DNA of 64,000 nucleotides from Rubellicoccus peritrichatus (GTDB lineage Bacteria; Verrucomicrobiota; Verrucomicrobiia; Opitutales; Cerasicoccaceae). The position numbers and the translations under genes are program-made. The stretch covers positions 682,001-746,000 of the forward strand of contig NZ_CP136920.1 in the NCBI RefSeq assembly GCF_033100135.1. Reading direction: 5' to 3'. Below the pieces are notes generated by a model. It was not told the origin of the DNA. It was given only the letters and a program-made list of their open reading frames with translations, and ran no database searches. Below, piece by piece: positions 19,821 through 37,931 of the stretch (the first letter of the stretch is position 1; every line of letters begins with the position of its first letter).

Positions 19821-20197
19821 TTCCCTTCGATATCCTTATTCAACAGTGTCTTAATGTGTTGCACTAACTTGACCGGACTAAATGGCTTACCAATGACCTC
19901 TACTGCACCAGCTTCTTTCAGTTCCATTTCGACGGATGGCTTGAAACGTGATGTTACAAAAATAACAGGCACCTCTTTGCAAACTGAACTAGCTTTTAAG
20001 GCCTCAAGCACCTGCAGACCAACACCATCTGGGAGATCAACATCCAAAACGGCGACATCAGGCACTATGCTATCAAGCTCTTTGATTGCAGGTTTCACAC
20101 GATCAAAGAAAAAACCTTCAATGCCATTTCTACGAAAGTGCAGCTGATAAAGCCGAATAATTGCAACCTCATCTTCAACTACCAAAACTTTACTCAT
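19817..20197 (-). CDS. Single-domain response regulator
   Basis: This 126-residue receiver domain has no output domain. The acidic pocket is seen in VLVVEDEVAI, the phospho-acceptor in VAVLDVDLPDGVGLQVL (Asp near residue 52), VIFVTSRF supplies the Thr/Ser switch, and VIGKPFSP supplies the conserved Lys. As a stand-alone receiver it can only signal through a partner. The obvious candidates are the HATPase/PP2C protein, whose gene it overlaps by 4 nt, and the hybrid kinase two genes further upstream. Confidence 0.93.
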   Translation of the reverse strand: MSKVLVVEDEVAIIRLYQLHFRRNGIEGFFFDRVKPAIKELDSIVPDVAVLDVDLPDGVGLQVLEALKASSVCKEVPVIFVTSRFKPSVEMELKEAGAVEVIGKPFSPVKLVQHIKTLLNKDIEGK

Positions 20198-21909: not shown

Positions 21910-22577
21910 TAGTTCGCCTTACGCCCTTCTAATAATCTTTCTTCGGCATCTGCCAATAGAGATTTAATCGTTGCTTCACATTGGTTCGCAGAAAGGACAA
22001 CAATATTAATGAGCTCATCACGATCTGAATCAGTTAGTTCAGCACTCAATGTGCGAAATGTCTCCATTGCCCCAAGAATACCTGCGATAGGATTACGAAT
22101 ATCATGGGCAACTGTATGCGCAAACCGTTCAAGTTGGCCAATAAGAGCATCCTTCTCCTGAATGCGCTCTTGTAGCTTAGCCTGAAGACGCGCAATCTCA
22201 AGGTGAGTGCGAATACGCGCCTCGACTTCTTTTGTCACTAATGGCTTAGTAATAAAATCAACACCTCCAGATTCAAACCCAGAAAGTTTGCTTTCAATGT
22301 CATCAAGCGCACTAAGAAATATAACCGGAATTGAAGCCCATTCCGGGTTTTGTTTAATCCGCATTGTTGTTTCTATCCCAGACATTCCTGGCATCATCAC
22401 ATCCATGAGAATGATATCAGGACGAACTATCTCAAGACGCCTTAATGCGGTTTCTCCGTTCTCAGCGACAAGGACACGGTACTGATGCTGTTCAAGAATA
22501 TGATTAAGCAAACTGATATTGTCCGGCGTATCATCAACGATTAGTATCGTTTCCTGAGCTTCACTGTTAATATTCAT
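21909..22577 (-). CDS. Response regulator with C-terminal histidine-kinase dimerisation helix
   Basis: From ATG 22577 the product is 222 residues. Residues about 8-125 form a receiver (ILIVDDTPDNISLL, phospho-acceptor in PDIILMDVMMPGMSG, FLSALDD, FITKPLVTKEV). A coiled coil follows, then a HisKA-like segment FAHTVAHDIRNPIAGILGAM with a phosphorylatable His in HDIRNP. The ATPase domain that normally follows is absent, so the protein ends as a DHp stub. It may serve as a phosphotransfer platform between the hybrid kinase and the other regulators. The ORF extends to 22628, but that would overlap the kinase gene. Confidence 0.86.
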   Translation of the reverse strand: MNINSEAQETILIVDDTPDNISLLNHILEQHQYRVLVAENGETALRRLEIVRPDIILMDVMMPGMSGIETTMRIKQNPEWASIPVIFLSALDDIESKLSGFESGGVDFITKPLVTKEVEARIRTHLEIARLQAKLQERIQEKDALIGQLERFAHTVAHDIRNPIAGILGAMETFRTLSAELTDSDRDELINIVVLSANQCEATIKSLLADAEERLLEGRKAN

Positions 22578-22578
22578 T

Positions 22579-24585
22579 CTAACCTTCCTTATCGGACTGA
22601 ACAGATTCAAGATAACGACAAAGTGCATCTATTTGAAACTTGTCGCAATAAGTAGAAACGGTTTCTCGAAAATGGCCTAGCTCTGTGTCACTCGCATCAA
22701 TATTGGAAACCTGTCTCTTCAACGCATTAATATCTCCAATCATAGCAGCCTCTAACATGGGTTTAAGAATTGCGTCGCTAACAGTGACCGATGCCTTGGC
22801 AGCAACCGATTTCGCTACACTAACAGATTTTAGTATTTCATTATCGCTGAGCATCTTATTAACCACATTTATTACGTTATCCACACCAATAGGTTTAAGT
22901 AAAAAATCATCGAACGAGCGATGCCGCTCACTGGGAAGGTCTAGAACATTAGCACTAACTGCGACAATCCTCGTATGAGAAAATCGCTTCATACTTCTAA
23001 CTTTGCGGCATAACTCATGACCATCCATGTCCGGCATTCTAATATCAGTAAGAATCAAATCTGGCCCAAAAGATTCTGCCATCTTAAGGCCAGTACGTCC
23101 GTTTTCTGCAAATGCCAAACCAAACCCGAGAGGCTCTAGTATGTCCTTAAGCAGATTCCGGCTAGATTCATTATCATCAACAATCAAAACGCGTTTGGAT
23201 TGTTGGACCTCTTGTTTCCAGGGACTTTGAGTTGTGCTCGATGCATTACGAGCGACTGCTTCAGTCGATTCTAAATGTAATGTAAAGCTAAAGATACTGC
23301 CAATACCTTTTGTTGAATTAACAGTAAGCTCCCCTCCCATTAACTCTACCAAGTTTGCACTTATCGCCAAGCCAAGCCCAGTCCCCTCCATCAAAACCGC
23401 ATTCGAACTACTCTGCTCAAAAGGTCTGAATATCGAATTCACTTCGGATGCTTCGATGCCTATTCCTTCATCTTCAACAACAAATGTGTAGCGGCAATTT
23501 GAGTGAATAGAAAGTGCGCAATTAACACTACCAGAATCAGTAAACTTGATGGCATTACCCACTAGATTAACCAAGATTTGTCGAATAGCTTTTGCATCGC
23601 CTAATACATTCGGAATTTCACCGCCGCTCCAAACCTGACCAGTTTCTCCATCCAAAATAAGAAACGACAAATTCAACCCTTTCTGAGCCGCCTTGAGTGT
23701 AAATAATTCAGCCACTCCTGAAAATAACTGGGGCAGGTCTATAGGTGCATGCATGATCTGCATTTTCCCAGCTTCGATCTTGGACAAATCAAGTATATCA
23801 TTAATCAGCGCAAGTAAATGCTCACCATTGCGCTGCACGACATCCAGCTGGGCTCGATCTTTCTCCGTAAGATTAGGAGACTGCAAAAGCAATTGCGCAT
23901 AACCTAAAACGCCATTCAAAGGCGTTCTAATCTCATGACTCATATTCGCTAAAAAAAGACTTTTGGCCTTATTTGCTTCAGCAGCTTCAATCGCAGCATT
24001 TTCAGCACGAATAATAGCTTCTTCTAGTGCATGCTCTGCATTTTTCTGATCGGTAATATCTGTCTCGATTGCAATGTATTGAGTTAGTAATCCTTCATCA
24101 TTTAAGATCGGGTCAGCATCAATACGTATCCAATACGGTCGTCCTTCTTTCGTATAATTAATCAACTCGACATTAAAAGATTTTCGTTGGGCAATAGCAT
24201 CTCGAATTATCTGAACAGTGTCCTGATCGGTCTGTGGGCCTTGTAACAATTCTCCTGGTTTCCGGCCAATCAAGTCATCAATTGTATATCCGGTAACTCG
24301 TGTAAACCCCTCGTTAATCCAAAGCGTACCTCCAATGTCATCTGTGATAATGACGCCATTTGCAGTTTTTGCAGCTACCAGGGACAAACGCTTCAGTTCG
24401 CCCATTCGCTCTTCCACCAGTTTTTCTAAGCGATCTCTCTGATCAGCCAGCTCGTTGTTACTTTTCCAAAGTTCATGACTTTTATTTTCAAGTAATTGCT
24501 CAGCGGCTTTTCGTGCTTTACGTTCGCGCTCATAACGCACACGCCACTTAGCGCTTGCATCATTAAACTGGTCAGAAGAAGTCAT
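22579..24585 (-). CDS. Hybrid sensor histidine kinase (PAS-HisKA-HATPase-REC)
   Basis: This 668-residue cytoplasmic kinase has no membrane helices. The order is a coiled coil (about 15-65), a PAS/PAC domain (about 68-190, VIITDDIGGTLWINEGFTRV), HisKA with FLANMSHEIRTPLNG (His near 218), HATPase (VGNAIKFTDSG, VEDEGIGIE, GTGLGLAI), and then a receiver (RVLIVDDNESS, phospho-acceptor in DLILTDIRMPDMDG). A helical C-terminus follows. Soluble hybrid kinases encoded next to an H-NOX gene are known NO-responsive partners. Here the H-NOX gene overlaps it by 4 nt and precedes it in the operon. The PAS domain offers a second possible input. Confidence 0.93.
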   Translation of the reverse strand: MTSSDQFNDASAKWRVRYERERKARKAAEQLLENKSHELWKSNNELADQRDRLEKLVEERMGELKRLSLVAAKTANGVIITDDIGGTLWINEGFTRVTGYTIDDLIGRKPGELLQGPQTDQDTVQIIRDAIAQRKSFNVELINYTKEGRPYWIRIDADPILNDEGLLTQYIAIETDITDQKNAEHALEEAIIRAENAAIEAAEANKAKSLFLANMSHEIRTPLNGVLGYAQLLLQSPNLTEKDRAQLDVVQRNGEHLLALINDILDLSKIEAGKMQIMHAPIDLPQLFSGVAELFTLKAAQKGLNLSFLILDGETGQVWSGGEIPNVLGDAKAIRQILVNLVGNAIKFTDSGSVNCALSIHSNCRYTFVVEDEGIGIEASEVNSIFRPFEQSSSNAVLMEGTGLGLAISANLVELMGGELTVNSTKGIGSIFSFTLHLESTEAVARNASSTTQSPWKQEVQQSKRVLIVDDNESSRNLLKDILEPLGFGLAFAENGRTGLKMAESFGPDLILTDIRMPDMDGHELCRKVRSMKRFSHTRIVAVSANVLDLPSERHRSFDDFLLKPIGVDNVINVVNKMLSDNEILKSVSVAKSVAAKASVTVSDAILKPMLEAAMIGDINALKRQVSNIDASDTELGHFRETVSTYCDKFQIDALCRYLESVQSDKEG

Positions 24586-25127
24586 TTAACCGAGTTGACT
24601 TTGACAACAAATATAGTTGTCCCGTCACCTTGTTTATCACTCTGAATACTTCCATCTTCTTCAAAATGTTTAAAGCATCCCAATATCAAACCTTCAGCAA
24701 AGTCCTCCATGTGACGCTCAGAGATATAGTGCATATGTAGCTCATTCTCTGCAACGCGTGTGGTTCTAAACTCCGGTAGTTCTGCATCCGGATAAAGCTT
24801 ACGAACCTCTACATGGATATAATCATGAATATTTTCCAGGAAAGCCAAACTACTGTCAAGATTCTCAAAGAATACTGGATAACCGACAACGAAACGCTGG
24901 AATAAATGCTCACCATAGGTCTTAAGAAGGTCAGAAACGGATACCTCTGTTGCCTTATGCAATTCAGTTACAAGCGATACCATCTCTTCGTGCGGATAAG
25001 TGCCGACAGCCGTATACGCTCCTTGGGAAACCGGCAGGTCCGCTCGTTCTATTAGGTCATCAACCATATCGATTCCAAACCGCTCCTCCACCATCTCGAG
25101 AAACTCCGTAAAAACCATACCTTTCAT
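24582..25127 (-). CDS. H-NOX heme nitric oxide/oxygen-binding sensor protein
   Basis: H-NOX proteins bind NO, and in some cases O2, through a histidyl-ligated heme and control partner kinases or cyclases. The 181-residue length is typical. The heme-propionate motif Y-x-S-x-R is present as YISER (residues 134-138). A His at position 105 (in DYIHVEVRKLYP) lies 29 residues before that Tyr, the spacing expected for the proximal ligand. The N-terminus MKGMVFTEFLEMVEERFG also matches the family. The position next to a soluble hybrid kinase suggests gas-controlled phosphorylation. Facultative anaerobes usually have the NO-selective form, but selectivity cannot be read here with confidence. Confidence 0.92.
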   Translation of the reverse strand: MKGMVFTEFLEMVEERFGIDMVDDLIERADLPVSQGAYTAVGTYPHEEMVSLVTELHKATEVSVSDLLKTYGEHLFQRFVVGYPVFFENLDSSLAFLENIHDYIHVEVRKLYPDAELPEFRTTRVAENELHMHYISERHMEDFAEGLILGCFKHFEEDGSIQSDKQGDGTTIFVVKVNSVK

Positions 25128-26293
25128 TTAAGTCCTTTCATATACTGTTCAACTAATGGCATTATACACGCTATATCCTGAGTAGCATGGAATACAGAAT
25201 GCAACGCCTCATCAGCATCCTGTGGCTTATGGCAATGATGGCAATCAGCATAGCCAAAAACTCCCGGCGTTGCTGATTCTAAAATAGATCTCCATTCACG
25301 ATTCTCTATCCTATCTAAATCTTCTTCAGTTCTAGGGTTTACTCCAACCAATCTCAAGCGCCCAGCGCATACTTCTTTGAGCCATACAACTTTAACGGCC
25401 ATTGAATCATCAGACAAAACCTTGGGCAGCATAAGCCCGTTGATAAACTCAGTTTTACCTTCGATAGATGCATTGCGCAAATGATGTCTTAATTTAAAGT
25501 ATAGCCTCAAGGCATAAATCCGCTCCCAAATGGGTGGCTTAATATTGCCCTTATGCTCAAAACTCTCAGCTAAATGCCCCTCCAACCGCTGATGGTGAAC
25601 TCGATGCTTGAGATCAAAGAGTTCAGAGCCTCCCAAAATTCCGTATTGAATCGAAGTAACTGGCCCTAAAAAAGTATGGGCTAAAATGTGGGCATTAGAC
25701 ACCTCACTATGACCGGCAAGCATAGAACCTTCTTCAATAACACAATTCGGGCCAACCACACAACCTGGCCCAATAAAGACATGATCACCGATTAATACTG
25801 GCATGCGTAATTTCGCTTCAGAATGAATCATGCAGTAACGCCCAACAGCTAAATGTTCTACGAGATCTCCATTCTCTTTGTTTATTTCTGAAAGCCACTG
25901 TCTCTCCAACTCCAACCAAAAATCTAGTAATGTCCAACCATCTGATGGTAAGCCACCAGCGACGTCCTTTCCAGGTAGTCCATAATGGACAAACTCTCCA
26001 ACATCAGCAACCGCAAGTACTTTCCACTCAATAGGCCAAAGAGATGCATGACTCAAAGCATCTCTGATATCAGCAGGCCTGTCAGAAACGCGAAAAGTGA
26101 TCTGTGAATAGCCCTCATTAATTGCATAATCAAGCCAATGAAATACAAGGCCTTGATCTCCAATTGGCCATAAGGCAAAGGGTTCGGGACTACTTCTCAC
26201 CAAATCAATATTACTGAAATCAGGTAGCTCTACTTCCAAAACACCTCGGGCTTGTCTTAGACTGCCGGGTAATGATGGTACTGATGCACTCAT
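25124..26293 (-). CDS. Nucleotidyltransferase-like protein with left-handed beta-helix and Cys-rich C-terminal region
   Basis: The 389-residue protein combines a degenerate nucleotidyltransferase-like N-terminus (about 1-150; no clear GxGxR signature) with hexapeptide repeats (about 165-215: MPVLIGDHVFIGPGCVVGPN, then CVIEEGSMLAG). The C-terminal region (about 290-389) contains LRLVGVNPRTEEDLDRI and a CHHCHKPQDAD motif. That tail recalls the C-terminal part of some bacterial sugar transferases, and the next gene upstream encodes the membrane sugar transferase proper. It may therefore act with that enzyme when EPS synthesis starts on undecaprenyl phosphate. The activity is unproven, and the CxxC could bind metal. 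Confidence 0.65.
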   Translation of the reverse strand: MSASVPSLPGSLRQARGVLEVELPDFSNIDLVRSSPEPFALWPIGDQGLVFHWLDYAINEGYSQITFRVSDRPADIRDALSHASLWPIEWKVLAVADVGEFVHYGLPGKDVAGGLPSDGWTLLDFWLELERQWLSEINKENGDLVEHLAVGRYCMIHSEAKLRMPVLIGDHVFIGPGCVVGPNCVIEEGSMLAGHSEVSNAHILAHTFLGPVTSIQYGILGGSELFDLKHRVHHQRLEGHLAESFEHKGNIKPPIWERIYALRLYFKLRHHLRNASIEGKTEFINGLMLPKVLSDDSMAVKVVWLKEVCAGRLRLVGVNPRTEEDLDRIENREWRSILESATPGVFGYADCHHCHKPQDADEALHSVFHATQDIACIMPLVEQYMKGLK

Positions 26294-26297
26294 TCGA

Positions 26298-27005
26298 TCA
26301 GTATGCTCCCTTCCCGGCCAGCACAGCTGGAACTGTTAAAAACAGTATCTTAATATCTGTCCAAAAGTTCGCTGAACGTATATACTCCAAATCCAACCTA
26401 ACTTGGCCTTCAAAATCGATATCAGCACGACCACCGATCTGCCACAGACATGTTATCCCGGGCTTCGCCTTCAGTCTTCTCAAATGAACGGCACGATACT
26501 GAGCCACTTCTCGTGGCACTGGTGGACGCGGGCCAACTAATGACATTTCACCCTTCAGGACGTTATAAAACTGAGGAAATTCATCCACACTTGCTTTGCG
26601 AATAAACTTACCTACTTTAGTAATGCGTGGGTCATCTTTAATTTTAAAAGTAACTCCTACCGCATGCTGATTGCCCTCAGCTAAAGCATCTTTAATCTCA
26701 TCAGCATTGGTGACCATGGATCTGAATTTAAACATACCAAATGGTTTACCACCATCGCCAACACGAGTTTGCTTAAAAAAGATGGGGCCACCGTCCTCAA
26801 TTTTTATCAGTAGCGAAACAATGAGGAACACTGGAGAAAAGGCGATCAACGCAGCAATCGATCCTAGAATATCCAATAAACGCTTCAACAAGTGAGATAG
26901 TTTAATCGTAATGCGCCACCATAACATCTTCCGCCTGGTTGCCCTTATCCAAGCACGCACACGACTCACTTCAACCGCAGATGCCCAGTAATGTTCAGGA
27001 TTCAT
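26298..27005 (-). CDS. Polyprenyl-phosphate sugar-1-phosphate transferase (bacterial sugar transferase family)
   Basis: This priming enzyme loads the first sugar-phosphate on undecaprenyl phosphate. The 235-residue protein has one membrane segment (about 42-66) and the WcaJ/WbaP catalytic domain: GGPIFFKQTRVGDGGKPFGM, FKFRSMV, then KFIRKASVDEFPQFYNVLKG, MSLVGPRPPVPREV and KPGITCLWQIGGRADIDF. It lacks the extra membrane helices of long-form enzymes. It is the first gene of the minus-strand operon and is divergent from the STAS gene. A 17-bp palindrome lies 15 nt upstream of its start. Confidence 0.95.
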   Translation of the reverse strand: MNPEHYWASAVEVSRVRAWIRATRRKMLWWRITIKLSHLLKRLLDILGSIAALIAFSPVFLIVSLLIKIEDGGPIFFKQTRVGDGGKPFGMFKFRSMVTNADEIKDALAEGNQHAVGVTFKIKDDPRITKVGKFIRKASVDEFPQFYNVLKGEMSLVGPRPPVPREVAQYRAVHLRRLKAKPGITCLWQIGGRADIDFEGQVRLDLEYIRSANFWTDIKILFLTVPAVLAGKGAY

Positions 27006-27019
27006 TGTTTACAGTTATC

Positions 27020-27036: not shown

Positions 27037-27125
27037 AAATTAAATAACAATAATAGTATCAAATAAAGTGGCACTAGAAGTCAAATACTGCTTAACATAT
27101 TTAACAATTAAACGATAACCAAGCT

Positions 27126-27452
27126 ATGAGTAATAACTCGATTTTTTTATGCAGTAAAGAAGGCGATAGTATTATTCTCAAAATGATAGTTGAGAACTTT
27201 GACGCAGCTCTAGCACCAGAGTTCAAAGAGTATGTAAGCGTGCTCAAGCTATCTGAAATTGATCAAATCACTGTCGATATGAAATCCGTTGAATTCATGG
27301 ACAGTTCTGGCATTGGCGCGCTTCTTTTCTTAAATAACCAGCTGCCTCCGGATAAAAGACCGCTCAAGCTACTGAATACAGCCCCACATGTCGTTAGTTT
27401 GCTGGAACTCCTTCGTGTTCACCGAATGCTGAAAGTCGAGCCCTCAGCCTAA
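27126..27452 (+). CDS. STAS-domain protein (anti-sigma-factor-antagonist type)
   Basis: The 108-residue protein is a single STAS domain of the SpoIIAA/RsbV type. The phosphorylation loop reads VEFMDSSGIGALLFL, with candidate Ser60/Ser61. Such proteins switch partners according to Ser phosphorylation by a HATPase kinase and dephosphorylation by a PP2C phosphatase. Both of those activities are encoded in one protein on the opposite strand at 20194-21909. It is the first gene of the plus-strand EPS operon and lies 12 nt before the next gene. No anti-sigma or sigma factor is visible in the window. Confidence 0.9.
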   Translation: MSNNSIFLCSKEGDSIILKMIVENFDAALAPEFKEYVSVLKLSEIDQITVDMKSVEFMDSSGIGALLFLNNQLPPDKRPLKLLNTAPHVVSLLELLRVHRMLKVEPSA

Positions 27453-27464: not shown

Positions 27465-28553
27465 ATGAGTCATTTCTTTCCAGCGGAGCATCCTTCTCTA
27501 GAAGCGAAACTGGAAGCTCATTTTGCGCGCGCACGAAATGGAGCTGAAAGCAAGTTAGGCAAATCGGCAACAGCCCTAATTCTTGGGGGCGGTTACGGAC
27601 GCGGTGAAGGTGGTGTTGTCACCAACAGAAATGATGGGACTGAGTCTTTATTCAACGATCTCGACTATTTTCTTTTCACTGAATCGCCTGATACGCCTTC
27701 AGTAGAATCCTGGCGCACTATTTTTGAGAAAGAAGAATCAAAAGCACTTGGAATAGACGTAGAGGTCAAAGCTCTCCCTGCAAAAGATGCACATAGCAGC
27801 ATCAATTCAATGATGTTTACAGACCTGATTCATGGTCATTATTCTGTTTGGGGAGACCCAAGTTTCCTACTTAAACTTAAACCGAATTGTAATCCCAACA
27901 ACCTACCCCTCATTGAAGCGACACGTTTATTATGGAACCGAGGAACTGGGCTTTACTTCGCGCGATGTGAACTGGAAAGAAATGGTGAAGCTAACTTCAT
28001 CGAGCGAAATTTGAATAAGCTGAAGCTCGCATTAGGAGATGCCTGGTTGATACTCAATGGAAAATATGCTCCCCATGTCAGGACTCGAGCAGAATTGCTG
28101 GATCAAACGAATATTGATAGTGATTTTGAAGTTCTAAAGGAATGGCACCGCAAAGGTGTAATATTTAAATTTCAGCCAGAGGTTCAAACTCGCTCAAAAG
28201 AAGAAAGATATGCTGACATAAACAAGCTTAGTACCGTCTGGCTAAAACTCTTTCTACAGATCGAAACAAAGCGTTTATCCACTCAATTTACAGTTGCAGA
28301 TCAATATGCGACTTACTCAAAACAATTGTTTCCAGGTAGTGGAATAATGCGCAACTGCGCTCTAGCGATCAGAGATGAGCTGAAGCGAGGTAGTCATCTA
28401 CGACCATTCACTGATTATCCCCGAGGTGCACTTATGCGAGCCTTGGTCCTACTGCTTTCTGAAAGACAAGATTCCAACCCTGAAAAATACTTTAGTAAGA
28501 TCAACGGAACACTGGAAACAGATTATCTCCGCTGGTGGGCCCATTACAGCTAG
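27465..28553 (+). CDS. Putative nucleotidyltransferase-fold protein, EPS-associated
   Basis: I do not recognise a named family for this 362-residue protein. An N-terminal LILGGGYGRGEGG followed by LFNDLDYFLF resembles the G-(G/S)-x9-13-D-x-D signature of the nucleotidyltransferase fold, although the spacing is stretched. The rest is alpha-helical and charged, with no signal peptide or membrane segment. It lies between the STAS gene and a GT4 gene. Its TAG stop shares the final G with the proposed GTG start of that GT4 gene. A modifying or accessory role in EPS synthesis is suggested only by position. Confidence 0.55.
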   Translation: MSHFFPAEHPSLEAKLEAHFARARNGAESKLGKSATALILGGGYGRGEGGVVTNRNDGTESLFNDLDYFLFTESPDTPSVESWRTIFEKEESKALGIDVEVKALPAKDAHSSINSMMFTDLIHGHYSVWGDPSFLLKLKPNCNPNNLPLIEATRLLWNRGTGLYFARCELERNGEANFIERNLNKLKLALGDAWLILNGKYAPHVRTRAELLDQTNIDSDFEVLKEWHRKGVIFKFQPEVQTRSKEERYADINKLSTVWLKLFLQIETKRLSTQFTVADQYATYSKQLFPGSGIMRNCALAIRDELKRGSHLRPFTDYPRGALMRALVLLLSERQDSNPEKYFSKINGTLETDYLRWWAHYS

Positions 28554-29782
28554 TGAATGCACGGCTACTTATCATGCTACCTTACGTTCCCTTTCCACTA
28601 ATGCGAGGGACTTACCAACGGGTGTATCATTTGGCAGAGATACTAGCCAGCGAATACACTAGCGATTTATTTTGTTTAAGCCAGGAAGATGGAGATCAAG
28701 ACCACCTTTCAAGATTTCAAAATATTTTTAGCAGAGTTCAATTTTGCCCTTTTAAGCACCCACCCTGGCCCGGATTCTGGACAAATCGAATTTGGAATTC
28801 CCAACCTACAACAGTGAGACATTGGCAGAATGATTCAGTGACTCAATCACTCAAATCATTCACTGCGGGAAAAGAATATGATGTAATTTGGTTCTGCGAC
28901 CTTGTCCTCTGGCCTTACGTTAAGAAAGCATTCCCCAAACACTACAAACTCATCCTTGATCGCAGCCGTGTCGACTGGCTTTTCCAAGCAGAAGAGTTAA
29001 GAACTTTAGAGCAATCATGGGTTCAGAAGCTTATGCGTATGGAAAACATATGGAAAGTTTCTCGAATCGAACGAGAGCTGATTCATGAGTTAGACCTGAT
29101 GATTGTATGTGGCCCAGACGACAAAGCATTTCTGCAAAGTAAAGTCGGCCCACAAGACAATATCTGGGTCCTCCCCAATGGGGCTAATGAAATGTTCTTC
29201 AATGCCTCCAGTTTTCCTCAAGAACCAGCATCAAATCCAACTGCATTGTTTTGTGGTGCGCTGGATTACGTGCCAAATATCGATGCATTGCAATGGTATG
29301 CAGAAGACATTCACCCTCAGATCCTAAAAGCCCGACCAGATTATTCGCTTACACTTGTCGGCAAGAATCCGACAGATGCCATTAAGGCGATGGCCCATAT
29401 AAAAGGCATTAACTTTGTAGGGGAAGTTCCCGATGTACGCCATTACTACCAAAATGCGTGGTTCCAAATTGTCCCACTTCGCATCGGCGGCGGAACACGT
29501 CTGAAAATTGCCGAAGGATTATGCCTGTCAAATCCAGTGATTTCCACAACTCTAGGTGCTCAAGGTCTAGAATTGAGGGATGAAGAGCATCTGTTACTTG
29601 CTGACGAATCTGCCTCTTTCGCTAAAGCTTGTCTGAGACTAATCAGTGACGACAGCCTTAGAAGAAAGCTCGGCAAGAGTGGTCGTGATAAAATTCTGAA
29701 ATCCTATACATGGCAAGCCATTGGACGTCGACTAGTTGAAAAAGCGAACTCGATTCTCAAACAGGAAGTGACCACCAAATGA
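28553..29782 (+). CDS. Glycosyltransferase family 4 protein, PEP-CTERM/EPS-associated type
   Basis: This GT4 enzyme begins LLIMLPYVPFPLMRGTYQRV and resembles the sugar transferases often found in PEP-CTERM/EpsH gene clusters. Domain two starts with ALFCGALDYVPNIDALQWYA, and the donor site includes VPLRIGGGTRLKIAEGLCLS. The open frame reaches back to a GTG at 28535. I prefer the GTG at 28553 because it overlaps the upstream TAG stop by one base and gives a normal N-terminus (409 residues). The 3' end overlaps the next gene by 4 nt. Confidence 0.88.
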   Translation: MNARLLIMLPYVPFPLMRGTYQRVYHLAEILASEYTSDLFCLSQEDGDQDHLSRFQNIFSRVQFCPFKHPPWPGFWTNRIWNSQPTTVRHWQNDSVTQSLKSFTAGKEYDVIWFCDLVLWPYVKKAFPKHYKLILDRSRVDWLFQAEELRTLEQSWVQKLMRMENIWKVSRIERELIHELDLMIVCGPDDKAFLQSKVGPQDNIWVLPNGANEMFFNASSFPQEPASNPTALFCGALDYVPNIDALQWYAEDIHPQILKARPDYSLTLVGKNPTDAIKAMAHIKGINFVGEVPDVRHYYQNAWFQIVPLRIGGGTRLKIAEGLCLSNPVISTTLGAQGLELRDEEHLLLADESASFAKACLRLISDDSLRRKLGKSGRDKILKSYTWQAIGRRLVEKANSILKQEVTTK

Positions 29783-31239
29783 GTTTTCAGAATGATAATT
29801 CACATAATGAACCAGCTGAGCCCCCCATAGTTGTCCTGCTCGGATTGCCCTTCCATGACCTCACACTGAAAGAAGCACTTGAGGAATGTAATCGTGCTTT
29901 GAAAGGGAATTCACCGGAGTACTTCGCAACTGCAAATGTGGATTTCACCGCACAAGCATATAAGGACAACGACCTCCGGCGTATTCTCTTTTATGCCCAT
30001 CGAATTGTATGTGATGGCATGCCCCTTGTCTGGGCTTCGCGCATCCTCGGGCGCCCACTGCGCGAACGAGTTGCTGGCTCTGATCTTGTACCTCGCCTGT
30101 TCGAACAGTGCGCCCGAAACCAACACAAGATATACTTTTTTGGCAGTGATGAAAAGACACTGGCCGAATGCAAAGAGTGTCTTGAAGAAAGGTATGTGGG
30201 CATTCAGATAGTTGGTTACGAATCACCTCCCATGGGTAATGTCGAAGAATGGAATAACGAAGAGATTGCTCGACGTATACGCTCATGTGAGGCCGACCTT
30301 CTTCTCGTAGCCCTTGGTTGTCCGAAGCAGGAGCGCTGGATATATGCCCATCATAACGAAACCGGAGCCCAATTGAGTATCGGTATCGGAGCGAGCTTGG
30401 ACTTCATAACTGGCAAGCAAGTACGTGCTCCAGAATGGATGCAAAAAATTGGAATGGAATGGTTCTGGCGGATGGCCAGTAATCCAAAACGTCTTGCGGG
30501 CCGTTACTTCAACGACCTTATTTTCTTAACCTTTGCAGTCTTTCGACAAAAATTAAGTCTACTAAGACGAAAAACCAGACCGGATGCCTCTAAGCCCCAT
30601 CCCACTCCACCTCCTGATTTTGACCTTATTGAATGGCCTTCTGACGTTGAACGCGCGAACGTAAATAGTGCACCATTCCCAGGTAGCATTACGAAGGCCA
30701 TTTTATTGGATTTAAGTGCCATTGAGTTTATTGATAGTTCCGGTCTGGGCCGCATAGCAGCACTGGGTCGGCTGTGCCGTGACTCAAATCAAAATCTGGT
30801 GTTGCTCAATCCATCCACTGCCGCCAAATCAGCATTGGCATCCGTTCGAATGGATTCCTTGTTTCCAATCGCAATGTCGAAAAGTGAAGCGGCAGAGTTG
30901 CTGGCAAAAAACAATTCTGCAACTGCTATAACACAAAAAGAGAAGAACCACATACGCTTACGTTTTGAAGGAACATTAGAAGCCGCAACATACGATCAGA
31001 TGATGGACGAGCTTCTCCTAGCAATCCAAAAAGGAGGCACAAATGTCATCATCGACCTATCGAAAGTTGATTTCATAGACAGCAGGGCAATTGGCGGTTT
31101 GATTAAAATCAAACGCGAGCTAGCACATCAGAAGCGAGAGTTATTTATCGATAATGCAAAAGAATCTGTTCGTGAAACACTGAGACTTCTGCGCATCGAT
31201 AAACTCTTGCCTGAGTATCCCTCATCAGTCGAACCATGA
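29779..31239 (+). CDS. WecG/TagA/CpsF-family glycosyltransferase fused to two STAS domains
   Basis: Residues about 20-260 form a complete WecG/TagA GT26 enzyme: TANVDFTAQAYKD, IVCDGMPLVWASRILG, RERVAGSDLVPRLF, then LLVALGCPKQERWIYAH and IGVGASLDF-like IGIGASLDFITGK. The family transfers N-acetyl-mannosamine-type sugars to lipid-linked acceptors. After a short linker come two STAS domains. The first (about 285-370) keeps the phospho-loop EFIDSSGLG (Ser320/Ser321). The second (about 395-480) reads DFIDSRAIG, with Arg436 where the second Ser would be, so it is probably not phosphorylatable. The fusion ties a sugar transferase directly to the partner-switch encoded on the other strand. It overlaps both neighbours by 4 nt. 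Confidence 0.92.
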   Translation: MSFQNDNSHNEPAEPPIVVLLGLPFHDLTLKEALEECNRALKGNSPEYFATANVDFTAQAYKDNDLRRILFYAHRIVCDGMPLVWASRILGRPLRERVAGSDLVPRLFEQCARNQHKIYFFGSDEKTLAECKECLEERYVGIQIVGYESPPMGNVEEWNNEEIARRIRSCEADLLLVALGCPKQERWIYAHHNETGAQLSIGIGASLDFITGKQVRAPEWMQKIGMEWFWRMASNPKRLAGRYFNDLIFLTFAVFRQKLSLLRRKTRPDASKPHPTPPPDFDLIEWPSDVERANVNSAPFPGSITKAILLDLSAIEFIDSSGLGRIAALGRLCRDSNQNLVLLNPSTAAKSALASVRMDSLFPIAMSKSEAAELLAKNNSATAITQKEKNHIRLRFEGTLEAATYDQMMDELLLAIQKGGTNVIIDLSKVDFIDSRAIGGLIKIKRELAHQKRELFIDNAKESVRETLRLLRIDKLLPEYPSSVEP

Positions 31240-32378
31240 AGGTACTCATCTCCGCAGGCATGGTTCAAGGTGGCCGATCAGGTGTAGCCAGATACATCAT
31301 CGAACTTGTCAGATCTTTTGCTGAAATGAACCAGAACGATCTCGACCTTTATGTATTGGGACTGAAATCTGACCAGCATTTCTTCCCAACAATTACCGAA
31401 GATCACTGGATAACAATTCCTCAGGCATTTGCAAAAGGTCCAATGAATTTGCTTTGGCATCAGTTATTCCTCGCGAGTAAGCTGCGACAGCTAAAAATCG
31501 ATATTTTGCACATACCCAGCTATCGTCGTATCCTTTACAAAAGCCCGGTCCCTCAAGTCGCCACAATTCACGACTGCGCACCATTTATAATGGCAGCAAA
31601 ATACGATGCCAGCCGCAATTTCTTTGGGACAAAAGTTGTGCCTCATCTTGCTCGTCGACTGCCATTGATCTTCACGGTTAGTCAAGCGACAGCCAAGGAC
31701 ATCACAGGATACATGAAGGTTGACAGCAAACGTATTGAGCTAGCTCCAAACGGAATCGACCACAGTCATTTCAAGCCCCAAAGCAGCACCGCAATCAAGG
31801 CATTTAAAGAACGACATAAATTGCATCGCCCGTATTTCATCTACGTCGCGCGTCTTGAACATCCTGCTAAAAATCACATCAGGCTGATCCAGGCATTTGA
31901 GAAATTTCAGAGCCAATCAGGACTTGATTATGAATTGATTCTGCCAGGTGCGGACTGGCATGGCTCAGAGACTATTCGCGCAACGGTAGAAACCTCACCA
32001 GAGAGGAATCGAATACGCTTGGCCGGATTCGTTAAAAACGATGATCTTCCCCTTTGGTATGCATCCTCTGAAGCCTTAGTTTTTCCTTCCTTAATGGAAG
32101 GCTTCGGCATACCTGTGATTGAAGCGCAAGGCTGTGGAACGCTTGTGGCCTGCGCGGATGCAACAAGCTTGCCAGAAGTCGCTGGTGAAGCAGCAACACT
32201 GTTTGATGGAAAAAACATAGACTCGATGAGCAAGGTAATGCTCCAACTTTCTAAACTATCCAGTTCAAAAAGAAATGAAAAACATAAACAAGGACTACAG
32301 TGGGCATCAAATTTCACTTGGAAAGCAACAGCCCAAAAGTGCTTAAAAGGATATACCAAAGTCCTGAATAAAAACTAA
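31236..32378 (+). CDS. Glycosyltransferase family 4 protein
   Basis: This 380-residue GT-B enzyme has the mannosyltransferase-like GT4 pattern: GMVQGGRSGVARYIIELV at the N-terminus, QVATIHDCAPF, and FTVSQATAKDI. FIYVARLEHPAKNHIRLIQAF opens domain two, and the donor site is FPSLMEGFGIPVIEAQGCG. It should act on the lipid-linked EPS intermediate in the cytoplasm. It overlaps the WecG-STAS gene by 4 nt and lies 12 nt before the flippase gene. Confidence 0.92.
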   Translation: MKVLISAGMVQGGRSGVARYIIELVRSFAEMNQNDLDLYVLGLKSDQHFFPTITEDHWITIPQAFAKGPMNLLWHQLFLASKLRQLKIDILHIPSYRRILYKSPVPQVATIHDCAPFIMAAKYDASRNFFGTKVVPHLARRLPLIFTVSQATAKDITGYMKVDSKRIELAPNGIDHSHFKPQSSTAIKAFKERHKLHRPYFIYVARLEHPAKNHIRLIQAFEKFQSQSGLDYELILPGADWHGSETIRATVETSPERNRIRLAGFVKNDDLPLWYASSEALVFPSLMEGFGIPVIEAQGCGTLVACADATSLPEVAGEAATLFDGKNIDSMSKVMLQLSKLSSSKRNEKHKQGLQWASNFTWKATAQKCLKGYTKVLNKN

Positions 32379-32390: not shown

Positions 32391-33887
32391 ATGACAGCTG
32401 AATGGAAACGCCGTTTTTGGGCAAATACAGGAAGCAGTTATATTGCCATGGCCACGCGACTACTGCTTGGTTTATTGCTTTTTCGTCAGCTCTTCACTCA
32501 CTTAAACGATGAACAGTTCGGATTCTGGTCATTGATATGGTCTTTGTTCGGTTATGGCGTGCTTCTCGATTTTGGATTTGGATTTACGGCCCAAAAAGCC
32601 GTTGCAGAAAAAACAGCCAATGGAGACATGGAGGGTCTTAGTCGACTGTTAGCAACGATATTCTGGTGCTTCATTGGCTTATCTGCCTTTATTCTAATAA
32701 CATTCTTCAGTATTCGTGGCCCCTTTCTTGCCTCAATTGATGTGACTCCGGAATATCATGATCAATTTGGACAAGCTTATCTCATATTTTTCTGCGGCTT
32801 GGCACTTATGTTTCCCTTGGGTCTCTTCCCGGAAATGCTAAGAGGACTCCAAAGGATCGATCTCGCTAATTGGGTCAGCACAGCAAATACGATCGTGCAT
32901 TTCGTTTTCCTCGTTGGAGCCCTTTGGGCAGAATGGAGCTTTCCAGCCATTATGGCGATTAGTGTCATCTCAAGCATTATTCCAAACATAGCCGCTGCCT
33001 GTATGGCGATGAAGCGATTACCCAAAGTCTCCCTTTCCCCACGTTTCTTTACGCTCTCATCAGTCAAGTCTCAGATGAGCTTCTCAATGGCAGCATATCT
33101 TATAACTTTCAGTAACTTGCTCATGGCCAAAAGCGATCAATTGGTGATTGGGCTCACGCTTGGCGTTGGGGCTGTTACGATTTACCAGGCTGGCTATAAA
33201 ATGGGAGAAATGCTGAATTTATTTAGTGTGCAGTTACAAAGTGCACTTTCTCCAGCAGCAGCCGATCTTCACGCAAGATCAGACCGAAAAGGCCTGCGTG
33301 AACTTTTTATCCGTTCCTCACGGCTAACACTCCTGCTCATTACACCCTTTTATGTTCTGACTGCAGTTTTCCTTGAATCGCTGATCCAATTACTCACTGG
33401 CCTTGAAACAGTCCCAGCTGAAACTTATTGGACAGGGCAAGCCCTGGCTTTGGCCATCTACAGCTCACAGCTGACTAATAGCAGTGCAAAACGTATCTTG
33501 ATGATGACAGGCCGGGAGAAAGCCTTGCTCGGATTATCGATAGGAGATGCTGTCGCAAATGTTGGCTTAAGCGTTATCCTTGCCTACCAACTAGGGGTTG
33601 CAGGTGTCGGATTAGGAACACTTATTCCAACGGTAATGGTTGGCTGGCTACTGGTTCTACCCTTAGCAATGCGAGATCTGAATGTCGGTCTAGGAGAATT
33701 TTTGCTTTATAATCTGTCTGGAGTGTGGAAACCATTGCTCGCTTTTGCAGTTGTTCTTCTCTTTCTGCTCACAGTTATCCCAACACCAGAAAATGGGGGA
33801 TTCTTATCAATTGCATGGCGAAGCGTCCTTGCATTGATTCCATGCCTGCTTTTATCATATAAAACACTTAGAGAAATGACTTCTTAA
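32391..33887 (+). CDS. Wzx-type polysaccharide flippase (MOP superfamily)
   Basis: The 498-residue integral membrane protein has about 12-14 hydrophobic segments and the MOP/oligosaccharide-flippase N-terminus (WANTGSSYIAMATRLLLGLLLF, then FGFWSLIWSLFGYGVLLDFGFG). It should move undecaprenyl-linked repeat units to the periplasmic side in a Wzx/Wzy pathway. That fits the adjacent priming transferase, polymerase candidate, chain-length protein and outer-membrane exporters. It is followed by an 83-nt gap before the PEP-CTERM gene, so a separate transcript may start there. Confidence 0.9.
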   Translation: MTAEWKRRFWANTGSSYIAMATRLLLGLLLFRQLFTHLNDEQFGFWSLIWSLFGYGVLLDFGFGFTAQKAVAEKTANGDMEGLSRLLATIFWCFIGLSAFILITFFSIRGPFLASIDVTPEYHDQFGQAYLIFFCGLALMFPLGLFPEMLRGLQRIDLANWVSTANTIVHFVFLVGALWAEWSFPAIMAISVISSIIPNIAAACMAMKRLPKVSLSPRFFTLSSVKSQMSFSMAAYLITFSNLLMAKSDQLVIGLTLGVGAVTIYQAGYKMGEMLNLFSVQLQSALSPAAADLHARSDRKGLRELFIRSSRLTLLLITPFYVLTAVFLESLIQLLTGLETVPAETYWTGQALALAIYSSQLTNSSAKRILMMTGREKALLGLSIGDAVANVGLSVILAYQLGVAGVGLGTLIPTVMVGWLLVLPLAMRDLNVGLGEFLLYNLSGVWKPLLAFAVVLLFLLTVIPTPENGGFLSIAWRSVLALIPCLLLSYKTLREMTS

Positions 33888-33970: not shown

Positions 33971-34810
33971 ATGAAAAAAACAGCACTTATTATTTCGGCA
34001 ATAGCAGGTATGACACCACTTCTCGCTCAAGTCGAATCACCTGCCCAGTCGACTGCACGCCCCTTCGGGCTCGACATCATTGACACCGTTCAACTAGCTG
34101 GCTCCGATGCTGCATCAGCAGATTTCCAGCAGAATGCACTCCCTCAGCTCCAGTCTTTCGTTAACGAAAATTTAGGTGAACGCCAAGGCATCGAAAACCT
34201 TTCCACTATCGCTCTCGACCCAAGTAAACTATATCTCTCAAACGAGTCCGATGTTCGTGTATATTTTATCGGCGAGGGAGCCGGTTACCACAACACATTA
34301 GGATTCTCAACCGAGGGAGCTTCGCTCGACCCGAATGATGCATCACTTATCTTTCCTGATGCATCCAGCCCATATAGCTATTATCGAGATGGTCAATCCA
34401 ATCGTCGCTCGAACAATACACCACTTCAGGCCGGCGACTTTGTTGACCTGGGACAAATGGAAGCAGGAAGCACCCTCGACTTCTTCCTGATTGCCAACGG
34501 TGCATATGGAGGCAACTACGTTTGGTCCACTGAAGAATCAGCCAATGTTGACGGCCTTACTCATGTTGTCAGTCTCGCAGAAGATGGATCACCCTATCTT
34601 TTGATTGGCTTCGAAGATCTATATGGAGGTGGTGACAAAGATTATAATGATCTGGTTTTTGCAGTTGATATCGGAACTGCAAATGTAGCCTATCTGGCCA
34701 ATCCTGAGCCCTCAACCTTCCTGATCCTGATCGCACTTTTTGCTTTGATCGGATGGAGCCAAAAAGCTCACTTGAAACTAAAATCCGTATTCATGCGATC
34801 AACCGATTGA
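33971..34810 (+). CDS. PEP-CTERM sorting-domain protein with DUF4114
   Basis: The 279-residue protein begins with a signal peptide (MKKTALIISAIAGMTPLLAQ). It contains a DUF4114 module (about 105-235), whose hallmark acidic loop FEDLYGGGDKDYNDLVFAV is probably calcium-binding. It ends with a canonical PEP-CTERM tail: PEP at residues 245-247, a hydrophobic helix ILIALFALIGW, then a basic stretch. The exosortase encoded four kilobases downstream should cut at the PEP motif and release or attach the protein. It is the only canonical PEP-CTERM substrate inside the island and may be a structural protein of the EPS matrix. Confidence 0.92.
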   Translation: MKKTALIISAIAGMTPLLAQVESPAQSTARPFGLDIIDTVQLAGSDAASADFQQNALPQLQSFVNENLGERQGIENLSTIALDPSKLYLSNESDVRVYFIGEGAGYHNTLGFSTEGASLDPNDASLIFPDASSPYSYYRDGQSNRRSNNTPLQAGDFVDLGQMEAGSTLDFFLIANGAYGGNYVWSTEESANVDGLTHVVSLAEDGSPYLLIGFEDLYGGGDKDYNDLVFAVDIGTANVAYLANPEPSTFLILIALFALIGWSQKAHLKLKSVFMRSTD

Positions 34811-34840: not shown

Positions 34841-36556
34841 ATGTTAGGGACAAACAAATTAGTTAAAGTCTGCCTCATTTTAGCCTTCAGCGCCGGACTC
34901 ATAGTCTCCGGCGTTTTTATTTGGCGGCATCAAGCACTGGCCAACCGCAACAAACAGATCAGCGAAGAAATTCCAACACTGGTCGAAATTAATAATTTCG
35001 TTGGTGCCCGAAGGTTGGCAGAGCTACTTGATGATCCTCAAGAGCGGCACTTAGCGAAAGCACAAATCAACCAGTCAGAGCTGTCATATGCCGTAAACCA
35101 GCGAAACGCAGTATCAATTGAGCGGCTGCTGGGCGATGTAAATGGATTAACTGATGAGAGAAAGGATGCCGCCCAGCGGGTAATGGCCCGTAGCTATATT
35201 CATCAAAAAAGAGAATCTGATCTGATTCCACTACTTGAAGCCAATAAAGACAAACCTCACTGGACCTTGATCGAAGCCGATTGGCATATCACGCAAGGTA
35301 ACACAATAGAAGCAGTTGAAATTCTGGAAAGCCAAACATTCTCCGGCAAAAATGAAAGCTATCGCCTCGCTCGACTGGCAGCTCTGAAGTCACGAACACC
35401 CGAACAGGCAATTGCAGCGTTGGAGGCTGCGCTTGAAGAAACTCCACGGAGTTCAGACATTCTATCATTCCGCGGACAGATTCTGGAGGCAATTGGAGCC
35501 TACCCCGAAGCCCAGATTGATTACGTCAACGCAGTCATAAATTCTCCCCACAACTTACTTTATTGGGATCAACTCGGTGAATATTATATTCGTCGCCAAA
35601 ACTACAGTGGAGCAATCCAGATATGGATCGATGCGATCGAACAGACTGGGGAGCATGTCTTCTGGTTAAAAGCATGGTTTTGGAACCGGGTAACCGTAAA
35701 AGTCGATAATCTACCTGAGGTCCCGGCAGGCAACTATCCACTTCACGCATTTTTAGTCTATTGTGACAAGCTGCCAGAATCCATCTTCTGGGATGCTGAA
35801 GCGTATATGACTGTTCCGGGTGCAAAAGCATTGGAACGAACAAGACCTGAAGTTCAATGGCTAAGCGTACTTCAACTGCTAGCCGATGGAGAAAAAGCCA
35901 AAGCCATTAATCAATTCAATATTCATGCCAAAACGATCGGCCGTTGGGCACCGCAACTCCGCGCTATGCTGCTTGCAATTCTCATGACTCAAAGGGATGG
36001 CCATTTACCAACCAATTTGGATGAGGTAAAACGCTACGCAAACCAGCATCAGTTCTTCGAAGCCATTGCAAAAAATCAAGACCCTACGTTGATCGACTTC
36101 CTGATAACGGATGCTTCCATCACAGCGGCCCTGTTAGCTTCGGGCTGGACAGAAGCAGCTCTTGTTTTTTCAGATGCAGATCAGACAATAGCAAACCGTA
36201 CACCCAAATGGCTGAACTACGCGTATGCACAGGCACTGCGTATTAATCGCTCCAATCAAGTCGCTAAGGATTGGCTGACAACCCATACCAATACTTCAGC
36301 TGATCGACTGCTTCTGGCAGAACTTCAACTTGGAGATGGTCAAATCGGGAATGCAATGAAGGCACTGATTAACCTTTCAAAAGAAGAAAACGAAATTGGA
36401 GCACGAGCCACAATGCTTCTATGCCTGGCAGAGCTTGAATTGGGAAATCCCGATAATGCACTCGCCTACCTTAGATCCAATAAGTCATTGGCTCAAAGCA
36501 ACGCCGGCATTCTGATGCTAGAGCGTTTAAATGATGCAAAACGGGATGCAGAATGA
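34841..36556 (+). CDS. Membrane-anchored TPR-repeat protein, EPS/exosortase-associated
   Basis: The 571-residue protein has one N-terminal membrane anchor (LVKVCLILAFSAGLIVSGVF) and then repeated helical hairpins of TPR type. The clearest are around residues 190-275 (AIAALEAALEETPRSSDILS, then LEAIGAYPEAQIDYVNAVI) and near the C-terminus. It should face the periplasm. Long TPR proteins are regular members of PEP-CTERM/EPS loci and of alginate-type export systems, where they form periplasmic scaffolds. Its stop overlaps the exosortase start by 4 nt, which ties the two functions together. Confidence 0.85.
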   Translation: MLGTNKLVKVCLILAFSAGLIVSGVFIWRHQALANRNKQISEEIPTLVEINNFVGARRLAELLDDPQERHLAKAQINQSELSYAVNQRNAVSIERLLGDVNGLTDERKDAAQRVMARSYIHQKRESDLIPLLEANKDKPHWTLIEADWHITQGNTIEAVEILESQTFSGKNESYRLARLAALKSRTPEQAIAALEAALEETPRSSDILSFRGQILEAIGAYPEAQIDYVNAVINSPHNLLYWDQLGEYYIRRQNYSGAIQIWIDAIEQTGEHVFWLKAWFWNRVTVKVDNLPEVPAGNYPLHAFLVYCDKLPESIFWDAEAYMTVPGAKALERTRPEVQWLSVLQLLADGEKAKAINQFNIHAKTIGRWAPQLRAMLLAILMTQRDGHLPTNLDEVKRYANQHQFFEAIAKNQDPTLIDFLITDASITAALLASGWTEAALVFSDADQTIANRTPKWLNYAYAQALRINRSNQVAKDWLTTHTNTSADRLLLAELQLGDGQIGNAMKALINLSKEENEIGARATMLLCLAELELGNPDNALAYLRSNKSLAQSNAGILMLERLNDAKRDAE

Positions 36557-37392
36557 ACGCACAACCAAATGCTGAATGCAAGCCAGAGCAAAAGCGTGCT
36601 TCCGGTCTCTGGCTGACAGCACTTGCGATATGTTACGTTATTATCTGGTGGCAGGATTCGCTCTGGTTAACAGCTCCAGCCGATACACTGCCACTTGTCA
36701 GTGGATTAATCCTTCTTCTTTTTCTTGGCCGCCCATGGATATTCCTGAAAACAAGGAAAAGCATATCGCAACCATTTTGTATTATTGCAATTGCTCTCAT
36801 CGCATTCGGTATCGCGATTAACATCATGATCCTCTCTGCCCTTGGGTGGACATTACTTTTAACAGTCTTCCTTCGGAGCTATTTTCAATTACCCAGGTAT
36901 TGGGCACAACTGCTTCCCCTCGCCTTCTTCGCGTTCCCATGGGTCGCGACAGATCTGCCAATGGTCGGGTGGTGGTTTCGAATCAGTGCTGCAACGGTGT
37001 CGGCCTGGATATTTCAGTCTCTCGGATTTTTGGTCATGCGGCAGGGGGCAGACATACAAGTCCAGGGGCTTCCAATATCAGTTGAAGCGGCCTGTTCCGG
37101 CCTCAATCTCCTGCAAGCCTTACTGTTGGCAGGTGCCGTACTCGGGTTACTTCAATTACGGGGCAGGACCAGCTACTGGGGATTTCTTCTCTCGCTGCCC
37201 CTGCTCGCATGGTTTGCAAATACATGCCGCATCTTGGTCATCACAGCCGTCGCCTTAAGCAGTGACACTACATTTGCTGCTGGATTATTCCATACATGGG
37301 GAGGCTTACTTGTCGTTGTGCTCATGTTTGGAGCTGCTCAGTTTCTCGTCACTTTCCTATCCAAAACAGGACCAAAGGAAGTTGGGACATGA
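36553..37392 (+). CDS. Exosortase (EpsH/Xrt family)
   Basis: Exosortases are polytopic cysteine proteases/transpeptidases that process PEP-CTERM proteins. The 279-residue protein has about 7-8 membrane helices and the conserved triad: Cys181 in EAACSGLNLL, Arg226 in WFANTCRILVI, and His247 in AGLFHTWGG. The partner substrate lies upstream at 33971-34810, and an EpsI-like gene follows at 37921. It overlaps its upstream (TPR) and downstream (small membrane protein) neighbours by 4 nt each. I cannot assign a numbered exosortase subtype from memory. Confidence 0.93.
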   Translation: MNAQPNAECKPEQKRASGLWLTALAICYVIIWWQDSLWLTAPADTLPLVSGLILLLFLGRPWIFLKTRKSISQPFCIIAIALIAFGIAINIMILSALGWTLLLTVFLRSYFQLPRYWAQLLPLAFFAFPWVATDLPMVGWWFRISAATVSAWIFQSLGFLVMRQGADIQVQGLPISVEAACSGLNLLQALLLAGAVLGLLQLRGRTSYWGFLLSLPLLAWFANTCRILVITAVALSSDTTFAAGLFHTWGGLLVVVLMFGAAQFLVTFLSKTGPKEVGT

Positions 37393-37931
37393 CACCTTTG
37401 GATAAGCAATCCGAGCACCACATACCGACTCAACAGGATGAGGCGAGGCAACCGCAGCAAAGTGGAAAGAGCTCTTTATTAATTATAGCCATTGCGATCA
37501 TCGCGTTCTCATGCTGGCAAGCTCGCGATCTTTTTGAGATATGGCAAAGCGATGTTTATGCGCGCCTCGCTCCACTTTGCTTTGCACTTTGGCTTTTAGC
37601 AGGACTGGTATCGATTATTTCAAAAAGAAAAGATTGGAAACCTGAAATCCTTAATCTTTCCCTGGCAATTATTGTTACTCTCATCGGAGTCATCGGATCG
37701 CTCAATATCCTGAAACAAATTGGGTTCGGACTCGCACTGGCTGGTTTGATTCCTTTCAGTGCATACAAATACATCTGGGTCATTGGTATACCCTCTTGGC
37801 TTCCTGCAACCGGATGGCTTGCAGCAACTCAACTAAACCTTGGTCCCTTGTGGTTGAGACTCCCTGCCCTTATGCTATCGCTTGTAATCCTCATCCCGTT
37901 ATTCGGAAGGAGGAATAGCAATGAAGCGTAA
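37389..37931 (+). CDS. Exosortase-associated membrane protein of unknown function
   Basis: From ATG 37389 (ATGA overlap with the exosortase stop) the product is 180 residues. A polar Gln/His-rich N-terminus (about 1-30) is followed by five or so hydrophobic helices (SSLLIIAIAIIAFSCW, LAPLCFALWLLAGLVSII, LNLSLAIIVTLIGVIGSL and two more). No Cys/Arg/His exosortase triad is present. The longer frame from 37296 lies inside the exosortase gene and is rejected. It sits between the exosortase and the EpsI-like gene with overlaps on both sides, so it is probably part of the same membrane complex. Confidence 0.75.
   Translation: MTPLDKQSEHHIPTQQDEARQPQQSGKSSLLIIAIAIIAFSCWQARDLFEIWQSDVYARLAPLCFALWLLAGLVSIISKRKDWKPEILNLSLAIIVTLIGVIGSLNILKQIGFGLALAGLIPFSAYKYIWVIGIPSWLPATGWLAATQLNLGPLWLRLPALMLSLVILIPLFGRRNSNEA

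Follow-up and report, generated by a model that had tools for sequence, protein, structure and literature searches.

The known system that the locus described here most resembles in layout is the V. fischeri chain HnoX–HahK–SypF–SypE–SypA (PMC12369376). SypE/SypA acts below transcription, and SypA, HmpV and similar lone STAS proteins control polysaccharide or motility in model bacteria through targets that were unknown in papers of 2021–2024 (PMC8256260, PMC10120452, PMC11112999). The phosphoacceptor is Ser56 in SypA and Ser58 in SpoIIAA (PMC4517449, PMC8256260), and the residues given as contacts to the kinase include Asp20/Asp22 of SypA and the equivalent positions (PMC10120452). Partner-switch proteins attached to, or acting directly on, their output have been described in other settings: binding of SiaC activates SiaD in the P. 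aeruginosa SiaABCD system, a proven case of enzyme control via oligomeric state (PMC8457831); the Actinoplanes sigma factor SsdA carries a fused STAS domain that binds the anti-sigma domain of SipA (PMC10733313); and Anabaena all4160 is a glycosyltransferase with an N-terminal STAS domain (PMC8256260). Among sugar transferases of the WecG/TagA type (GT26), TagA requires a C-terminal appendage for activity and membrane binding and is controlled by a monomer/dimer and membrane equilibrium (PMC6493773).

Here we analyse a 64,000-nucleotide stretch of the Rubellicoccus peritrichatus genome (the window) in which a GT26 transferase of an exopolysaccharide locus carries two STAS domains. The window shares with SypE/SypA a single protein that combines an RsbW-type kinase with a PP2C phosphatase and is encoded close to a STAS gene with a conserved acceptor serine, and with V. 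fischeri syp an H-NOX protein and a hybrid histidine kinase associated with one exopolysaccharide locus. SypA is a lone STAS protein, whereas the window has a lone STAS and two more fused to the transferase. SypE has a central receiver, whereas the middle of the window kinase is GAF-like (a GAF domain was detected in homologues), Pfam found no REC domain within it and the receiver is a separate, overlapping gene; we therefore do not file it as SypE. As in SsdA/SipA, a STAS-type antagonist domain is fused to an output protein, which for SsdA is a sigma factor. As in SiaABCD, a partner-switch protein would directly control a biofilm enzyme, although SiaC is a separate protein, its target enzyme is a diguanylate cyclase and its own control is through a threonine. 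The STAS domain of all4160 likewise sits on a glycosyltransferase, at the N terminus by the review's description, and we count it, likened by description, as one literature precedent. An open-access literature search for GT26–STAS fusions returned only this mention (such absence is weak evidence), and a search for exosortase and STAS domain together in one paper returned none. The novelty of the fusion lies in a variant of partner switching, an already known principle.

Organization of the locus

Two divergent operons of overlapping genes, as judged from gene spacing only, meet at about 27005–27126 (Table 1). The rightward operon runs from the lone STAS gene through a nucleotidyltransferase, a GT4, the fusion and a second GT4 to Wzx; exosortase, EpsI, Wzy-like and Wza-like proteins are encoded downstream. 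The leftward operon reads priming transferase, hexapeptide protein, H-NOX, hybrid histidine kinase, REC–HisKA, RsbW–PP2C and REC, an order that puts the priming enzyme of the polysaccharide into one operon with a serine kinase/phosphatase, a histidine kinase and a protein of NO-sensor type. The HNOB gene adjoins the hybrid histidine kinase gene in the window and likewise in two other loci (L226, L225); its product is a candidate NO sensor, with haem/NO binding and kinase control predicted.

Table 1 Features of the window in and around the fusion gene, by position in the window
Feature	Position	Strand	Evidence
Single receiver (REC) protein, overlaps kinase gene	19817..20197	-	Pfam 1.4e-19
RsbW-type Ser kinase + middle region + SpoIIE/PP2C phosphatase	20194..21909	-	Pfam HATPase_c_2 2.7e-13, SpoIIE 7.6e-35
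REC-HisKA protein	21909..22628	-	Pfam
Hybrid histidine kinase (PAS-HisKA-HATPase-REC)	22579..24585	-	Pfam
H-NOX (haem NO-binding) sensor, candidate	24582..25127	-	Pfam HNOB 8.6e-43
Hexapeptide-repeat acyl/nucleotidyl-transferase-like protein	25124..26293	-	Pfam Hexapep
Priming sugar-phosphate transferase (Bac_transf)	26298..27005	-	Pfam 1.2e-68
Stand-alone STAS, loop MDSSG, SypA-like position, first gene of fusion's operon	27126..27452	+	Pfam 1.3e-11; SpoIIAA alignment
Pol-beta-type nucleotidyltransferase, unnamed family	27465..28553	+	Motif, predicted fold
GT4a glycosyltransferase (GT4), 4-base overlap with fusion gene	28535..29782	+	Pfam
GT26-STAS-STAS gene, 486 aa	29779..31239	+	Pfam and NCBIfam; AlphaFold2 model; alignment of 52 two-STAS homologues
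GT26 (WecG/TagA) catalytic domain + C-terminal appendage, residues 16-262	29824..30564	+	Pfam 6.9e-61; VIA Z
STAS1, residues 281-378, shortened first helix	30619..30912	+	Pfam, model
STAS1 acceptor Ser320 in DSSG (319-322)	codon 30736-30738	+	
STAS2, residues 384-482, full first helix	30928..31224	+	Pfam, model, VIA Z
STAS2 acceptor Ser435 in DSRA (434-437)	codon 31081-31083	+	
STAS2 Arg436 in DSRA	codon 31084-31086	+	
GT4b glycosyltransferase (GT4), 4-base overlap with fusion gene	31236..32378	+	Pfam
Wzx-type flippase	32391..33887	+	Pfam Polysacc_synt_3
DUF4114 secreted protein, PEP-CTERM-like end	33971..34810	+	Pfam; end judged by eye
Exosortase	36553..37392	+	Pfam 5.2e-21
EpsI/DUF3485	37921..38514	+	Pfam 2e-10
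O-antigen ligase/Wzy-like polymerase	38516..39979	+	Pfam Wzy_C 5e-8
Wza-like export protein	41542..42663	-	Pfam Poly_export

The nucleotidyltransferase matched no Pfam or NCBIfam family; it carries the motif GGYGRGEGG...NDL, its predicted fold resembles that of the ANT/AadA/MNT nucleotidyltransferases, and most loci keep it adjacent to the fusion. It may modify a sugar or a protein in polysaccharide loci.

Architecture and catalytic site of the fusion

A first-pass annotation of the window, made from the letters alone, had described a WecG/TagA transferase fused to two STAS domains, and this fusion is confirmed by Pfam, by an AlphaFold2 model and by the roughly 65 such fusions that we collected; their occurrence in many genera led us to reject a chance or assembly fusion. 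Pfam recognized Glyco_tran_WecG (PF03808; 6.9e-61, residues 75–243, 205 bits against a cut-off of 27.4) and two stretches of STAS (1.7e-25). In NCBIfam, the score for the superfamily TIGR00377 was above its cut-off, and those for the equivalogs EpsA and TarA were below both of theirs. The model contains three well-folded domains (mean pLDDT 89.9, pTM 0.89): TagA superimposes on residues 16–212 (VIA Z 29.6, rmsd 1.5 over 194–197 residues), and the last approximately 100 residues, STAS2, match TM1442, RsbV and SpoIIAA (VIA Z 16–17).

The catalytic residues T51, D79, R97, Q184, R231 and R238 are invariant among 33 aligned homologues, so an enzyme rather than a relic is to be expected. Four of them (T51, D79, R231 and R238) align with Thr37, Asp65, Arg214 and Arg221 of TagA, the roles of which we take from PMC6493773. 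Judged by its sequence, the protein should be a sugar transferase for exopolysaccharide, with transfer to a polyprenyl-linked acceptor predicted. Like TagA of T. italicus, it combines the fold and the catalytic T/D/R residues with a C-terminal arginine appendage; unlike TagA, it has about 220 extra residues, the two STAS domains, behind that appendage. All of the tail residues (R216-A-P, E227-W, R231, P236-x-R238-L...R242-Y243) are found in the fusion, and the model places tail helices at 219–223, 227–234 and 236–262. The proposal that STAS domains stand in place of the membrane-associating tail was therefore rejected on the residues, the TagA alignment and the model; the STAS domains were added behind the appendage and do not replace it.

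Two kinds of divergent member were also seen. In two genomes of one genus (L016 and L018; G131, G089), the GT26 domain is degenerate, having lost T51, D79 and R97 (residues checked in L018), and both STAS loops are intact; this is likely to be a pseudo-enzyme that retains its switch domains. A GT26–STAS–STAS protein of another genome (L010/L070; G216) has most of the appendage deleted and Asp79 replaced by Glu.

Acceptor serines of the two STAS domains

We take Ser58 of SpoIIAA to be the serine immediately behind the loop aspartate. This serine is kept in both fused domains (S320 in STAS1 and S435 in STAS2), and in the model each opens the second STAS helix (320–335 and 435–450). Across the 52 two-STAS homologues, the acceptor column holds 51 Ser and one Ala in STAS1 and 51 Ser and one Thr in STAS2, and it tops the conservation of all columns in each domain; outside the window's clade the STAS domains are only 32–36% identical, yet the acceptor serine is kept. 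Free variation of both loops, which the first-pass annotation had named as evidence against switching, is thus not what the homologues show: both loops are strongly constrained at the acceptor serine. Both domains look able to phospho-switch, as far as their residues tell.

The annotation located DSSG (Ser320/321) and the S435-R436-A437 of DSRA exactly, and read the pair as one switchable and one constitutive docking domain. The second half of this reading is not supported, because the acceptor serine is present in both domains and the arginine sits at the next, variable position (T 31, S 12, others 9 in STAS1; T 20, S 13, A 8, R 8, others 3 in STAS2; n = 52); a change from Ser to Arg there is insufficient by itself to make STAS2 constitutive, and the Arg/Ala change may weaken STAS2 switching in the window's clade. 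Arg-Ala marks that one clade in all eight of its members (the window protein, L005 and L034–L039). Family-wide, STAS2 usually reads DS[TS]G, so that the Ser/Arg asymmetry, conserved within the clade, is a clade feature and not a general rule, and the architecture is not based on it.

The two domains are unequal, as had been claimed, but it is STAS1 and not STAS2 that is the more reduced in the window's clade: its first helix has 6 residues against 16 in the model, the kinase-contact Asp that SpoIIAA has in its 'GELD' segment is missing from it in the alignment, and its mean identity within the clade is 46% against 52%. A decaying STAS2 was rejected because STAS2 is the better conserved. With S435 kept and STAS1 more reduced, the loop sequence is not informative as to which domain is switched, and the switching interpretation of the annotation is, overall, partly supported.

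Linkage to a kinase–phosphatase

The RsbW–PP2C protein of the window is the candidate writer and eraser of STAS phosphorylation, and its kinase and phosphatase catalytic motifs are invariant in an alignment of homologues. Full-length kinases were scored at E < ~1e-22 with an open frame of at least ~560 aa (one split gene included), and their RsbW part was profile-confirmed in the fetched loci. Among the matches listed, 40 of 286 genomes encode such a protein—23 of the 31 with a fusion against 17 of the 255 others. By genus, the kinase occurs in 18 of 25 with the fusion and 13 of 113 others (odds ratio 20, p 3e-9), a co-occurrence that is inflated by shared ancestry, genera not being independent, and that is drawn from genome sets compiled by hand among the matches listed.

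In 16 of the 23 co-occurring genomes, fusion and kinase lie on one contig within ~35 kb. Three loci (L222, L223 and L224) read STAS–STAS–kinase–REC–GT26-STAS-STAS on one strand, another (L148) has GT26-STAS-STAS, STAS, kinase and REC, and in L148 and L225 the kinase is within 3 kb of the fusion; the null for distance is crude, and this adjacency is hard to explain otherwise. The window's clade keeps a block of REC–kinase–acyltransferase–priming transferase divergent from STAS–nucleotidyltransferase–GT4–GT26-STAS-STAS–GT4 where the flank suffices (L034, L035, L037, L039 and L144/145), the kinase being split in two frames in L035 and the upstream GT4 having no labelled ORF in L037 and L039; in every one of these loci, the contigs of which are long enough, the kinase is present. 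At the cut-off used, the full-length fused kinase was absent from eight fusion genomes, and none was seen in flanks of ~10 kb around the fusions outside Verrucomicrobiota, which covered Desulfobacterota, Chloroflexota, Acidobacteriota and Kiritimatiellota.

The genome of the window also encodes a second RsbW–GAF–PP2C protein, which has a STAS of its own, as well as a small stand-alone RsbW, so the kinase partner of the fusion is not unique. This second module comprises RsbW–GAF–PP2C, REC and a lone STAS (L142:11325-13776; 3,656,324-3,658,775 of the genome), and no polysaccharide genes were seen in the surrounding 35 kb.

Proposed mechanism and alternatives

Partner-switch gating of the GT26 transferase by its fused STAS domains is the overall explanation that we favour, with a probability of roughly two in three on the basis of sequence and gene context; the transferase itself is most likely the output of the switch. 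A GT26 transferase of a Wzx/Wzy-type exopolysaccharide pathway would thus bear its own partner-switching modules. The RsbW–GAF–PP2C protein would phosphorylate and dephosphorylate S320 and S435, probably together with the lone STAS of the same operon, and REC and the histidine kinases would set the kinase/phosphatase balance, with H-NOX as a putative NO input. The phosphorylation state would decide the docking of the STAS pair, for which the kinase itself, the lone STAS and the neighbouring transferases are candidate partners. Docking would in turn gate the transferase, either by assembly into a synthesis complex or by a shift in its oligomeric or membrane-bound state. If SypA is a guide, activity would belong to the unphosphorylated form, and dephosphorylation would favour docking and transferase activity.

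Natural GT26–STAS–GT4 (735 aa; L231:4881-7085, also L048) and GT4–GT26 fusions (796 aa; L232:6276-8663) occur in other loci. They suggest that the transferases work as one complex, which supports complex assembly as one possible gate; an equilibrium of monomer/dimer and membrane-bound states like that of TagA could be another.

The fusion may thus mark the point of action of a biofilm control pathway. More tentatively, and at less than even odds, a serine partner switch fed by an NO sensor would have the GT26 transferase as its direct, covalently attached output; biofilm polysaccharide synthesis would then be gated post-translationally via STAS phosphorylation on the enzyme itself, and the targets of SypA-type proteins elsewhere would likewise be a pathway transferase. 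A large natural family of STAS–transferases linked to a SypE-like kinase points to a concrete target class for lone STAS proteins, and the fusion allows phosphorylation and transferase activity to be followed side by side on one protein.

Of the alternatives, the one that survives best, although we consider it unlikely, is that the STAS pair senses or scaffolds the kinase and does not gate the enzyme: unphosphorylated STAS domains would keep the RsbW domain captured at the synthesis complex, and the transferase would report its assembly or occupancy back to the switch, in the manner of an anti-sigma antagonist. STAS2 does fold like the RsbV of the RsbV/RsbW complex (VIA Z 16.4), and the degenerate GT26 domains of L016 and L018, which retain both STAS domains, indicate that the STAS part can serve without catalysis; however, the catalytic site is strictly conserved in nearly all members, and V. 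fischeri genetics places STAS downstream of the kinase (PMC10120452).

Rather less probable are constitutive, unphosphorylated STAS adaptors that act between proteins or at the membrane, for instance in dimerization or GT4 recruitment. The STAS domains of SulP transporters and of MlaB are not known to be substrates of partner switches, the natural fusions above (L231 and L232) point to a physical transferase complex, and acidobacterial members lack the acceptor; adaptors of this kind would nevertheless leave the linked kinase–phosphatase without explanation, and the acceptor serine is the most conserved site of both domains. We give least credence to the model of the first-pass annotation, a switched STAS1 beside a constitutively docking DSRA domain, which has the uniform DSRA of the clade in its favour and Ser435, the variability of the arginine position and the longer first helix and higher conservation of STAS2 against it.

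Distribution and origin of the family

The architecture search that the annotation had proposed returned the approximately 65 GT26–STAS fusions from a single GT26 clade, mostly in Verrucomicrobiota. In a tree of GT26 domains, the 65 fusions and only two non-fused rows form one group (99% SH-aLRT), which fits one origin of the fusion with later losses. By hand count among the matches listed, about 31 of the 286 genomes of the class encode a GT26 that bears one or more fused STAS domains. Two-STAS relatives occur in Verrucomicrobiota (most), Kiritimatiellota, Lentisphaerota, Desulfobacterota, Chloroflexota and one MAG assigned to Deltaproteobacteria. A fusion with at least one STAS is present in a gammaproteobacterial MAG, and forms with a single STAS come from Acidobacteriota, Armatimonadota and some members of the window's own order. 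Homologues were sampled by similarity to the query, so this spread is a lower bound. In a STAS tree, with few columns and too few to date the duplication, lone STAS proteins stand apart from fused ones.

The Asp of the STAS2 loop is lost in Chloroflexota. Acidobacterial single-STAS GT26 proteins (L072, L073, L075, L076, L077 and L080) have a loop without Asp-Ser, for example LTTTGAG, which indicates that STAS is used otherwise there. Within the window's own family, four other sampled genomes gave no full-length match to the fusion, and close homologues were found in Akkermansiaceae/Verrucomicrobiaceae; the locus may therefore have been transferred between orders.
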